Part shown: piece after piece, positions 7,191 to 11,711 of the stretch | How the letters are laid out: each line of letters starts with the position of its first letter | How positions within the stretch are numbered: the first letter of the stretch is position 1 | Source of the DNA: Microbacterium psychrotolerans | GTDB lineage: Bacteria; Actinomycetota; Actinomycetes; Actinomycetales; Microbacteriaceae | Direction: 5' to 3' | Assembly: GCF_031085295.1 (NCBI RefSeq) | Contig: NZ_JAVFWO010000002.1 | Coordinates: 868,001-932,000 of the forward strand | Length of the DNA: 64,000 nt | Notes under the pieces: model-generated | The model's input: the letters and a program-made list of their open reading frames with translations, nothing else | Told to the model about the DNA's origin: nothing | Database searches by the model: none | Position numbers and translations under genes: made by a program

Positions 7191-7200
7191 CGCCAGTCAG

Positions 7201-7246
7201 ACGGATGCCTCGGCCCGGCGCAGATGCGCGGGGCCGAGGCATCCGT
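7201..7246. terminator. Terminator between the PL11 gene and the DUF559 gene
   Basis: Inverted repeat with 16-bp arms ACGGATGCCTCGGCCC / GGGCCGAGGCATCCGT and a 14-nt loop. Same GGATGCC design as the glgP terminator; it lies between converging genes. Confidence 0.85.
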
Positions 7247-7272
7247 CCGTGGGGAAGGTGTCGGACCCACAG

Positions 7273-7346
7273 TCGGATGTTCTGCACGACACGCCGGGGC
7301 GGGATGTTGCCACCCGGCGCGTCGCCGAAAGGCTCCGATCCTGTGC
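7273..7346 (+). repeat. REP-like imperfect palindrome, copy C
   Basis: 74 bp, same length and about 73% identical to copy A with no gaps. Shared blocks: TCGGA, GCACGACACGCCG, CCGGCGCGTCGCCGA, CTCCGA and CTGTGC. It starts downstream of the 3' end of the DUF559 gene, ten bases away. Confidence 0.7.
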
Positions 7347-7355
7347 GCGCACTTC

Positions 7356-8186
7356 TTACGCGAGGTGCAGCCCGCGGTCGACGAGGCCGAGAATCGCGAG
7401 TTCGACCGTCTCCCAGTCGTGGACGACCATGGCGTAGTCGAAGCGAAGACTGACGAGCCCCCACGCCGCGGCGTTCGCGTCGCGAACGAGGTCCTTATGC
7501 CGGTGTGACGCGCCGTCATGGTTCGGCGCCCCGTCGACTTCAACGATCAACCGCTCGCCGATCACGAAGTCGACCCGGCCGACCGAGACGATCTCCTGCT
7601 GAGTCCGCACATCGAGCCGATGCCGTCGGAGCCGCCAGCGGAACAGAGACTCGAGGCCACTGTCCGCATCACGATGCGCGAAAGCGATCGCGTCGCGCGC
7701 CTGCCGGTTCGTGTTGTTCCGCAACCACGCGAGGTCGGCGCTCGTGAGCTTGCGCTGCCGCAGTGCCGACTCGAGTGACACAAAGAACGACTCGAGCCCC
7801 TGGCACCGAAGAATCTGCCGCAACACCACGCGAACCGAGGGCACACCGAAAGCGCTGCCCTTCGTTTCCTCGTCGTTCCAGTGGACGACGCAGGAGCAGT
7901 CTTGATGCTCGTAGACGCGCCCGTGGGGCCGGAGTCCGACATGGAGTTCGGCGCCGTGTTCCGCAACCCAGAGACCCAGATGCTCTGCCGCGCTGACGCA
8001 GGCGATCGATCCACCATGGGCTGCCGCGATCTTGAGGTCCTCGCACGCTCCGACGCGTTCGTACACTCCTCGCCGAAGCGACGAGAGCGCGCCCGTCTGC
8101 AGCGCCTCTGCGATCTTCGACCTGGGGATTCCCGACGCGCGCAGCTCCCCGAACGTCGTGACGCCAGGAGATGGGCAAGTGCACAC
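7356..8186 (-). CDS. DUF559-type endonuclease-like protein with N-terminal AbiEi-like winged helix
   Basis: 276 residues from a GTG at 8186. The N-terminal ~60 residues (TFGELRASGIPRSKI, LSSLRRGVYERVG) look like the small winged helix found in front of many actinobacterial DUF559 proteins, as in AbiEi antitoxins. The C-terminal ~100 residues carry the Vsr/PD-(D/E)xK-like core: LESLFRWRLRR, VSVGRVDFVIGERLIVEVDG (catalytic-type D and ExD), then RHKDLVRDANAAAWG. A DNA-acting role is inferred from the fold; no biological function is established for this group. It has no methylase or toxin partner. The start is uncertain: no Shine-Dalgarno; a weak GAGCAT lies 7 nt upstream. The gene is bracketed by related repeats on both sides. 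Confidence 0.75.
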   Translation of the reverse strand: MCTCPSPGVTTFGELRASGIPRSKIAEALQTGALSSLRRGVYERVGACEDLKIAAAHGGSIACVSAAEHLGLWVAEHGAELHVGLRPHGRVYEHQDCSCVVHWNDEETKGSAFGVPSVRVVLRQILRCQGLESFFVSLESALRQRKLTSADLAWLRNNTNRQARDAIAFAHRDADSGLESLFRWRLRRHRLDVRTQQEIVSVGRVDFVIGERLIVEVDGAPNHDGASHRHKDLVRDANAAAWGLVSLRFDYAMVVHDWETVELAILGLVDRGLHLA

Positions 8187-8296
8187 GCGCTCAATGCTCA
8201 GCGGCGATGCCCTCGACCTCGACCGTGTTCCTGGAATCTGTGCACAAGGCGTGGGCCGTGCCGTCTGGGAAGGAACCCCGGCGCTCGCACAAAACA

Positions 8297-8370
8297 TCGG
8301 AGACCCCGCACGACACGCCGACCCCGGACGCCTCACCCCGGCGCGTCGCCGAGAACCTCCGAATCTGTGC
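8297..8370 (+). repeat. REP-like imperfect palindrome, copy A
   Basis: 74 bp. The ends TCGGA...TCCGA and the inner CGACACGCC...GGCGCGTCG pair, so 16 of 23 outer positions can form a stem. The tail is ATCTGTGC. Confidence 0.75.
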
Positions 8371-8402
8371 ACCCCGCCCACGCAAGGCCGCGACGCACAA
8401 CA

Positions 8403-8477
8403 TCGGAAACCCCGCACGACACGCCGACCCCGGATGCCGCACACCGGCGCGTCGCCGAGAACCCTCCGATTCTGTGC
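8403..8477 (+). repeat. REP-like imperfect palindrome, copy B
   Basis: 75 bp, direct repeat of copy A at a 106-bp interval, differing at only about ten positions. Same orientation as copies A and C. Confidence 0.75.
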
Positions 8478-8524
8478 ACCCGGCCCACGCGAAGCCGCAC
8501 GCGAAACGCCGGCGCCCGCCCACG

Positions 8525-10605: not shown

Positions 10606-11711
10606 GACTGCTCTTTCCCGGCCCCGACCTGTTCCTGTTCCGCCGGCGCGGCTGCCGTCTCGTCGGCCTGCTTCTTCTCGTCCGCCTGCTTCTTCTCGTC
10701 CAACTGCTTCTTCTGCGCGGCGAGGCGCTCGCGGTCGGCGTCGGCGCGCGCGTGCGCGAGCTCCTCGGTGGCGACGCGCACGGCATCCTCCGCCTGCCGC
10801 ACCCGTCGCAGCGCGAACGTCGGCGAGCCGAACCGCTCGCGGACTCGGTCGACGTGCTCGCGCTCGCTGACGATGATCCAGGTCGAGGCGAGCAGGATCA
10901 CCTGGGCGGACAGGTTCAGCCACAGCAGCAGCGCGATGAGGCTGGCGAAGGTGGTGAGGAGAGGGTTGGAGCCGGCGCCTGCGACGAAGAGTCCCGACAG
11001 CTGCTGGAGGACCGTGAGCCCGACCGCGCCGAGGAAGGCCCCCGACCACAGCGCGCGTTGACGCGCGCGCACACCGCTCAAGCTGACGAACGCGAGGGCG
11101 ACGACGGCCATGTCGAGCAGGAACACGACGCCGATCGAGACACTGCGCGTGGCGATCGTCGCAAAGTCGTCTTGGGCGATCCCCGCCCAGTCGAGCACGG
11201 CGCCGATGAACGAGGTGCCGACGAACGTCGCGCCAGCGGAGAGGACGAAGCCGCCGCCGATGGCGATGGCGAGCAGCAGGTTGCGCAGCAGCACCCAGAC
11301 GAAGAAGACGTCGTCGTGCACCCGGTCGGCCAGGGTGCGTATGGCCACGCGCAGCGATCCGATCGCGCCGATCGCCGCTCCGACGAGCGCGACGAGCGCG
11401 ATGATCCCTGCCACGGTCAGTCCCGCAGGCGCCTGGATGTCGGAGACGTCGACGAGCCCGTCCTCGCCGACGAGCCCCGGGATCGCGGCATCCACCGCGT
11501 CCACCAGCGATTTCCACGCCGCGGGGTTGTCGCTCAGCCAGATGGCCGCGAACGAGAATCCCAGCAGCACGCCCGCGAACACGGAGAAGAGGGAACGGTA
11601 GGTGATGCTGTCCGAGAGCATCGGGCCGCGCCGCTCGGCGTAGTGCAGCCACACCCGCACGAGCCGCAGCGACAGCGCCCAGGCCGTCAGCTTCGCGATC
11701 AGGTCCGCCAT
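10602..11711 (-). CDS. YihY/BrkB-family inner membrane protein
   Basis: 369 residues. Six hydrophobic segments spread over residues ~30-290 with family motifs SDSITYRSLFSVFAG near the N-terminus and LWLNLSAQVILLAS near the end of the membrane domain. The C-terminal ~60 residues are a charged, likely coiled-coil cytoplasmic tail with KKQxDEKKQADEKKQADE repeats. The family was once called ribonuclease BN by mistake; its transport or membrane role is unresolved. The ATG has TAGGGT six bases upstream, so it is probably leaderless. Followed by nnrE with a 4-base overlap. Confidence 0.82.
   Translation of the reverse strand: MADLIAKLTAWALSLRLVRVWLHYAERRGPMLSDSITYRSLFSVFAGVLLGFSFAAIWLSDNPAAWKSLVDAVDAAIPGLVGEDGLVDVSDIQAPAGLTVAGIIALVALVGAAIGAIGSLRVAIRTLADRVHDDVFFVWVLLRNLLLAIAIGGGFVLSAGATFVGTSFIGAVLDWAGIAQDDFATIATRSVSIGVVFLLDMAVVALAFVSLSGVRARQRALWSGAFLGAVGLTVLQQLSGLFVAGAGSNPLLTTFASLIALLLWLNLSAQVILLASTWIIVSEREHVDRVRERFGSPTFALRRVRQAEDAVRVATEELAHARADADRERLAAQKKQLDEKKQADEKKQADETAAAPAEQEQVGAGKEQS

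Follow-up and report, generated by a model that had tools for sequence, protein, structure and literature searches.

A nuclease gene bracketed by its own palindromic repeats in Microbacterium suggests an unrecognised type of small mobile DNA

The window, i.e. the whole stretch of 64,000 nucleotides of Microbacterium psychrotolerans DNA that was analysed, contains a gene encoding an AbiEi-DUF559 protein between the genes of a rhamnogalacturonan lyase and a GATase (Table 1). We placed its start at an M-C pair common to six of seven aligned relatives. This makes the gene shorter than the longest open reading frame, so that it does not contain two of the palindromic elements described below (R2 and R3), which are upstream of it. 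No DUF1814 toxin gene was present among the two genes adjoining it. In Pfam, DUF559 (PF04480) scored over the cut-off and AbiEi_4 below the cut-off in the same protein; NCBIfam has no family for it, and PADLOC returned weak AbiEi models only. Searches of plasmids and phages yielded four and two distant relatives, respectively.

Table 1. Positions of the gene, the palindromic elements and the candidate mobile unit within the window
Feature	Position	Strand	Remark
AbiEi-DUF559 fusion gene	7356..8186	-	276 aa; GTG start inferred from M-C conserved among relatives
R1 palindromic element, beyond stop codon	7268..7345	+	78 bp
R1 inner palindrome	7287..7324		CGACACGCCG-N18-CGGCGCGTCG
Lone right-arm-like sequence, between gene start and R2	8234..8250	+	GAATCTGTGCAC
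R2 palindromic element, upstream of gene	8287..8370	+	84 bp
R2 inner palindrome	8311..8348		
R3 palindromic element, upstream of gene	8395..8477	+	83 bp
R3 inner palindrome	8417..8454		
Candidate mobile unit	7247..8522		DNA in excess of the shortest empty site (8 bp in G100)

The protein was modelled with AlphaFold (AF2; pLDDT 90.7, pTM 0.86). Residues 9-171 of the model match the AbiEi antitoxin (6y8q; Z 8.4, rmsd 4.2 over 158 residues; Foldseek E 9e-6) and also Rv2827c. For residues 175-275, the closest nuclease fold is the EDxHD homing endonuclease I-Bth0305I (3r3p; Z 10.5, rmsd 2.7, 96 residues), with further matches to NGO0050 (Z 10.1) and Vsr (1vsr; Z 8.7). Four residues, D206, D218, D232 and D236, are invariant in 53 sequences, and E216 and H223 are conserved at 90% or more; a catalytic role of all six is inferred from the fold comparison. 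The gene product can thus be described as an AbiEi-like DNA-binding module fused to a Vsr/EDxHD-type nuclease, both binding and cleavage being inferred in the absence of biochemical data. The Pfam and fold matches agree with the first-pass annotation, which had proposed a nuclease-type gene combining an AbiEi wing with DUF559.

Three elements in the same direction flank the gene, as had been proposed, but with the outer arms included they are slightly longer than the 74-75 bp initially assigned to them (Table 1). R1 ends 10 bases past the stop codon and the inner parts of R2 and R3 are spaced 106 nt start to start, both in line with the initial description. Over 68 nt, R3 is 93% and R1 66% identical to R2. 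The lone GAATCTGTGCAC is possibly an operator half-site or a relic, a role that is inferred only. The ends of the elements had also been thought to pair into an imperfect hairpin. R1-R3 are indeed symmetric imperfect palindromes, but not exceptional hairpins: folded as single-stranded DNA, they were not clearly more stable than their shuffles (z -0.31, -1.67 and -0.86), and the exceptional-hairpin reading was dropped. Membership in a known RNA family was dropped as well, as the best Rfam matches stayed far under the gathering scores. A further palindrome, terminator-like and of the form GACGGATGCCTCGGCCC..GGGCCGAGGCATCCGTC, follows the lyase gene at 7200-7247; this stretch matches many places in three related genomes (G098-G100) and belongs to another family of dispersed hairpins.

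The exact double core GCACGACACGCCG...CGGCGCGTCGCCGA has three copies in the 4.54-Mb genome, all of them at the window gene (none for the reversed control), and one diverged copy of the element lies elsewhere, at C11:184673. This full-length copy (L002:1491-1582) is located inside a long reading frame which, by eye, resembles two fused ABC-transporter ATPases, with the element between the halves and apparently translated.

We then scanned 98 genomes (the genome of the window, 58 of the genus and 39 of the order) for the inner palindrome, CGACACGCCG-N(6-28)-CGGCGYGTCG. It was present in 31 of them, with no more than 15 sites per genome, and the reversed control gave no match. According to the genus pattern derived from 73 copies, the inner arms are conserved and the loop of 18-19 nt is variable, while an outer arm of about 10-17 nt, more or less paired within the element, varies between genomes (for example CACAACTTCGGAG, AACTGCAAGG, CGAAACGTCGGAG and GGATCCGC). 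Exceptions were L115, with a loop of 7, and seven copies of G066 and G067, whose loop was longer or whose surroundings differed. The arm-to-arm length of 22 elements (20 loci, three near relatives) was 80-82 bp in a scan that admitted 60-92 bp. In contigs C1 and C2 of G066, from another family of the order, the palindrome is conserved over a greater length, GTGCACGACACGCCG..CGGCGTGTCGTGCAC (L104-L108); the sole DUF559 gene of that genome is not bracketed by it, and the flanks of this gene share another repeat.

As for the surroundings of isolated copies, 58 of the 73 copies, in 50 loci, were considered after removal of the three window copies, four that flank a DUF559 gene, and the exceptions named above (L115 and the seven of G066 and G067). 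Although the DNA concerned is 86% coding according to a simple gene caller, 54 of the 58 isolated copies are intergenic. Only one of these 54 occupies a divergent gap, as against 20.3% of gap bp (p 1e-4), and 23 occupy convergent gaps, as against 17.8% (p 2e-5). This placement is REP-like and speaks against promoter operators. Terminator-like hairpins were seen by eye beside the window unit and one dispersed copy; terminator adjacency was nevertheless dropped, not being enriched for elements (11/92) over random positions (45/460; p 0.57).

Next, the presence of elements was compared with that of the gene. We defined the gene clade by a score of at least 369 bits with model A3, a limit set after viewing the scores, the next lower of which was 340. 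Across the 59 genus genomes compared, 17 of the 19 with the clade and 11 of the 40 without it had exact copies of the inner arms (Fisher 1.2e-5); two clade-carrying genomes thus had no exact copy. The clade gene is single in 18 of the 19 genomes. The 20 clade genes were represented by 19 loci, 15 of which have elements on both sides (L253 by a weak match), two on one side and two (L267 and L269) on neither; loci of the sister clade are bracketed on both sides in one case out of 11. The best 80 of 158 named relatives gave a similar picture, with elements on both sides of 52 genes, on at least one side of 63 and on neither side of 17. As controls, 10 copies were counted at other places of these loci, and shuffled loci (40) had none. 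The named set and the genus sample share species and are therefore not independent. The distance between the upstream element and the start varies little (median -174, IQR -185 to -164, 58 loci).

In a relaxed scan of DUF559 loci, one element-flanked DUF559 gene was detected in each of nine out of 16 genomes, that of G067 having an element on one side only. The scan and the accompanying tree covered 77 of 91 DUF559 matches. In this tree, the eight flanked proteins of the window genus group with L042 of G001 (support 0.43), with a core of seven supported at 0.99, and the ninth flanked protein, from another family, falls elsewhere. Most dispersed copies are not located beside a DUF559 gene, as is the case in REP systems. 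One genome without a clade gene at 369 bits (G011) contains six element sites, one of them of another type, with an outer arm of its own (GTGCAGATCGGCGGGAG); this looks like a repeat family orphaned by gene loss. The first-pass annotation, which had linked the repeat to the gene, would have been refuted by a widespread repeat with no tie to DUF559 genes. This was not observed, although most dispersed copies do lie away from such genes, and other DUF559 genes turned out to be flanked likewise (see below). The pairing of gene and repeat is real, being neither due to chance nor a quirk of one locus.

One could argue that the palindromes next to the gene are self-repression operators of AbiEi style, that the copies dispersed in the genome form a regulon or are duplicates in decay, and that the nuclease has an unrelated role. 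AbiEi and Rv2827c, the proteins matched by residues 9-171, are autoregulators that bind inverted repeats upstream of their own genes, according to the part of the source available to us (PMC7319586), and the tight distance of the upstream copy from the start speaks for an operator. Yet at most loci a copy is also present downstream of the gene, the isolated copies avoid the promoter-rich divergent gaps in favour of convergent ones, and one copy has an empty site, as described below. We consider this explanation unlikely, without dismissing it.

Repeats of other sequence were found around other DUF559 genes. Both immediate flanks share a repeat in 48 of 77 DUF559 genes (16 genomes, mostly Microbacterium), compared with one of 84 control stretches; in the remaining 29 no shared repeat exceeded the cut-off, which was the 99th percentile of 302 mispaired flanks. 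The 84 controls are ORF-like stretches of similar length and not verified genes, which leaves the mispaired-flank control unaffected. Except in related genes, the shared repeats differ from gene to gene. Of the shared elements, 36 have a 6-mer direct repeat, the strongest being spaced 18-19 nt in 19 of them, a preference not seen in shuffles, and 12 of the 48 have no such repeat. The shared elements thus follow a common plan of four half-sites written in different letters. A second family, TCGCAG-N13-TCGCAG...CTGCGA-N13-CTGCGA, which is unrelated to the first, has six copies in the window genome, three of which bracket a DUF559 gene (C9:327517-328326) and three of which are dispersed. It was present in five of 58 genomes, with 11 copies in G009, and gave no control match. 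Elements of the form TGACTTGGCGTATATG..CGACACG, which contain part of the inner motif, stand on both sides of a different DUF559 gene (L143, G028 C45:186933). The signal was weaker across the phylum: in a sample of 198 genomes, of which 51 had DUF559 at E 1e-6, 45 of 49 loci were tested, and 12 of these 45 passed the same cut-off and 16 their own 99th percentile. Repeats of another kind may account for some of these shared stretches.

Several observations bear on whether the protein recognises the elements. Upstream and downstream arms of the same locus are more alike (mean score 16.4) than arms of different loci (8.1; 52 loci), the same-locus score exceeding the 95th percentile of different loci in 30 of the 52, and arms are common to related species. 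For 43 of 53 rows (the other 10 had no usable arm), outer-arm distance was correlated with distances of protein segments, giving Mantel coefficients of 0.59 for residues 10-60, 0.57 for residues 61-165 and 0.35 for the nuclease. The partial coefficient was 0.52 (p 0.0005) for the N-terminal half given the nuclease and 0.09 (p 0.03) for the nuclease given the N-terminus. Since the nuclease is also the more conserved part, this covariation counts as support and not as proof. Two clade genes were found both in M. helvum (L173 and L174) and in G015; the outer arms of L173 and L174 differ, as expected if paralogues diverge in specificity. From the fold, the covariation and the precedent of the autoregulators, it can be inferred that the protein likely binds the elements.

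The same data bear on a further possibility, namely that what adjoins a Vsr-like repair nuclease is either a chance repeat or a set of ordinary bidirectional terminators. The preference of copies for 3' ends and the Vsr-like fold are compatible with it, but the hairpins are not unusually stable, the species-specific outer arms are common to both sides of the gene, shared flank repeats are far more frequent around DUF559 genes than around controls (48/77 vs 1/84), and the arms covary with the N-terminus. This possibility, already disfavoured, hardly deserves further credence.

The genomic position of the gene was examined in 76 loci, i.e. 75 of the best 80 named loci, those longer than 6 kb, and the window. 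Judged by Pfam labels taken from representatives, its neighbours are an ABC ATPase and a class-IV aminotransferase, presumably pstB and pabC, in 36 loci, and in five it lies on the other side of the class-IV aminotransferase gene. Other neighbours are dihydrofolate reductase and dihydrodipicolinate synthase (nine loci), a PucR regulator and a class-III aminotransferase (eight), phosphorylase, lyase and GATase (five), and a solute-binding protein and TetR (four); nine loci had unclear or other neighbours. At least 13 changes of position label are needed on the gene tree, a figure that includes unclear labels. At the same time, the gene is often inherited in place, as seen from the 36 loci in which it has the same pair of neighbours.

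At the window locus, the distance between the lyase end and GATase was 252, 34 and 8 bp in G098, G099 and G100, against 1274, 1248 and 1276 bp in the window, and the other three of the six relatives searched for an empty site gave no lyase-end match. The empty site that the first-pass annotation had suggested looking for was therefore found in three of six relatives. In G098, G099 and G100 the unit is found across the lyase gene, at a place that is empty in the window, and in M. helvum the gene lies between phosphorylase and GATase without any lyase. As M. helvum has this arrangement, it might be the lyase rather than the unit that has moved or been inserted at the window locus. The lyase-GATase gaps of G098 and G099 contain GGTCGTTGAGCG..GACGAAACG stretches, which may belong to a repeat-rich region with many short genome-wide matches (L360:~10830-11520 and its matches in G099-G101).

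The empty-site case is cleaner for a dispersed element than for the unit. The orthologous gap of the window genome lacks copy 1 of L360 (G098, ~86 bp) and measures 57 bp compared with 145 bp; at this copy, just one side aligns in G099, G100 and G101, which were not counted. Copy 2 of L360 is common to G098-G100, and the matching window site is too diverged to be called empty. Thus, of two dispersed copies compared, one has a clean empty site. At the junctions, neither the unit nor the dispersed copy allowed a target-site duplication to be defined. The initial suggestion of a mobile or repeat-processing unit is supported by the association and the empty sites, although mobilisation by the nuclease has not been demonstrated.

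Empty sites of the unit would also be produced by a selfish gene of the homing type, whose nuclease cuts the unoccupied site so that the unit is copied in by recombination, the dispersed elements being leftovers of old insertions. That the closest nuclease fold is a homing endonuclease (I-Bth0305I, Z 10.5) fits such a scheme. Homing, however, would be expected to target an allelic site with homologous flanks, and the dispersed elements occupy unrelated sites and keep a constant length, 80-82 bp among the 22 elements measured. We regard homing as very improbable.

The arrangement was compared with known systems, the closest of which are the REPtrons formed by REPs and RAYTs; their layout resembles that of our gene and elements, as far as can be judged from the accessible parts of two sources (PMC3733652, PMC8266576). 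In both, there is usually one gene per genome, with short palindromes on either side of it and at scattered extragenic sites, and the abundance of these palindromes is tied to the gene. The dispersal expected of REPs is met, with up to 15 exact copies per genome, even though the window genome itself has only one diverged copy elsewhere. The differences are that i) a Y1/HUH protein is replaced by an AbiEi-nuclease fusion, ii) the elements are four-part palindromes of ~80 bp with a species-specific outer arm, and iii) the AbiEi-DUF559 gene occupies several genomic positions. As for i), the Y1 (HUH) transposase PF01797 was not detected at E<=0.01 in any of 11 genomes, while six of 14 control genomes matched; the elements are therefore not RAYT-borne REPs. 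The GTAG tetranucleotide described at the foot of REP palindromes in the portion of PMC3733652 at hand is absent from R1-R3. These results are in keeping with the first-pass annotation, which had recognised a layout like that of REP and TnpA-REP with a different protein.

With type IV toxin-antitoxin systems of the AbiE type (AbiEi, Rv2827c), our system shares the fold of residues 9-171 and inverted repeats upstream of the gene, but it differs in the nuclease fusion, in the lack of a DUF1814 partner beside it in the window and in having repeats downstream and at dispersed sites as well. The nuclease fold, with conserved acidic and histidine residues, is common to EDxHD homing endonucleases and to Vsr; these lack the N-terminal AbiEi module, the free-standing intergenic gene and the genome-wide palindromes. 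The resemblance to Vsr, a mismatch-repair endonuclease that cleaves at T-G mismatches, is one of fold alone. MITEs are likewise short, fixed-length inverted-repeat elements without a gene, but a conserved inner palindrome combined with a changing outer arm, and the absence of a known parent transposase, in a search limited to Y1, set our elements apart. In the literature, of which mainly titles and beginnings of abstracts were covered, with few subscription papers and no preprints, no link between DUF559 and palindromic repeats was found; PMC12907096, which names DUF559, contains none in the part available.

It remains conceivable that an unidentified transposase spreads the elements and that the DUF559 gene is merely a passenger between two of them or a defence nuclease. 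The AbiEi-DUF559 protein has no known DNA-joining activity, 11 of the 40 genus genomes that lack the clade contain copies, 29 of 77 DUF559 genes have no shared repeat above the cut-off, and our search for transposases covered Y1 only. On the other hand, genes of the same kind are repeatedly bracketed by different, unrelated repeat families, and the arm sequence covaries with the protein, neither of which is expected of a passenger. We therefore think this explanation distinctly doubtful.

The best reading, to which we assign a probability of roughly 0.55, is that of a REPtron-like mobile unit built on an AbiEi-nuclease fusion. It starts from the observed bracketing, dispersed copies, co-occurrence with the clade, covariation of arms and N-terminus, several gene positions and the empty site of a dispersed copy. 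In the proposed model, the N-terminal half would recognise the species-specific outer arms, both at the two sides of the gene and at dispersed intergenic sites, and the nuclease would cut or nick the bound elements. Repair might then occasionally move or copy a single ~80-bp element or the whole element-gene-element unit, and the upstream copy would probably double as an autoregulatory operator. Binding, cleavage and the dispersal caused by the nuclease are all inferred. That the nuclease drives the spread of the elements is the best single reading at the same odds; no experiment supports it, and how the DNA is rejoined is open, because a restriction-fold nuclease does not join DNA by itself, leaving the joining step unexplained. 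Several other points count against the REPtron-like reading: there is no biochemical evidence of binding or cutting, no target-site duplication was defined, the gene is often inherited in place, elements occur in genomes without the clade (11/40), 17 of the 80 named loci are elementless, and the phylum-wide signal is weaker.

Taken together, a gene accompanied by its own repeats suggests an unrecognised type of small mobile DNA. More tentatively, and with somewhat less than even confidence, we propose that AbiEi-DUF559 proteins, without being related to HUH transposases, form a class that mobilises repeats: a restriction-fold nuclease and a repressor-like DNA-binding module would jointly make, spread and keep private palindromes of four half-sites, and several such pairs of gene and repeat would exist side by side in one actinobacterial genome, each with its own specificity. 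CGTC-type REPs reportedly have no dedicated transposase, as stated in the accessible part of PMC3733652; the class may supply the enzyme that they seem to lack, a link that is untested. DUF559, a widespread domain of unknown function, thereby gains a testable role, and together with their repeats the AbiEi-DUF559 proteins would parallel the REP/RAYT system without relying on an HUH protein and would offer a natural series of pairs of protein and palindrome whose specificity changes. If a restriction-fold nuclease does spread palindromes, dispersed repeats would also reach bacterial genomes by a new route.
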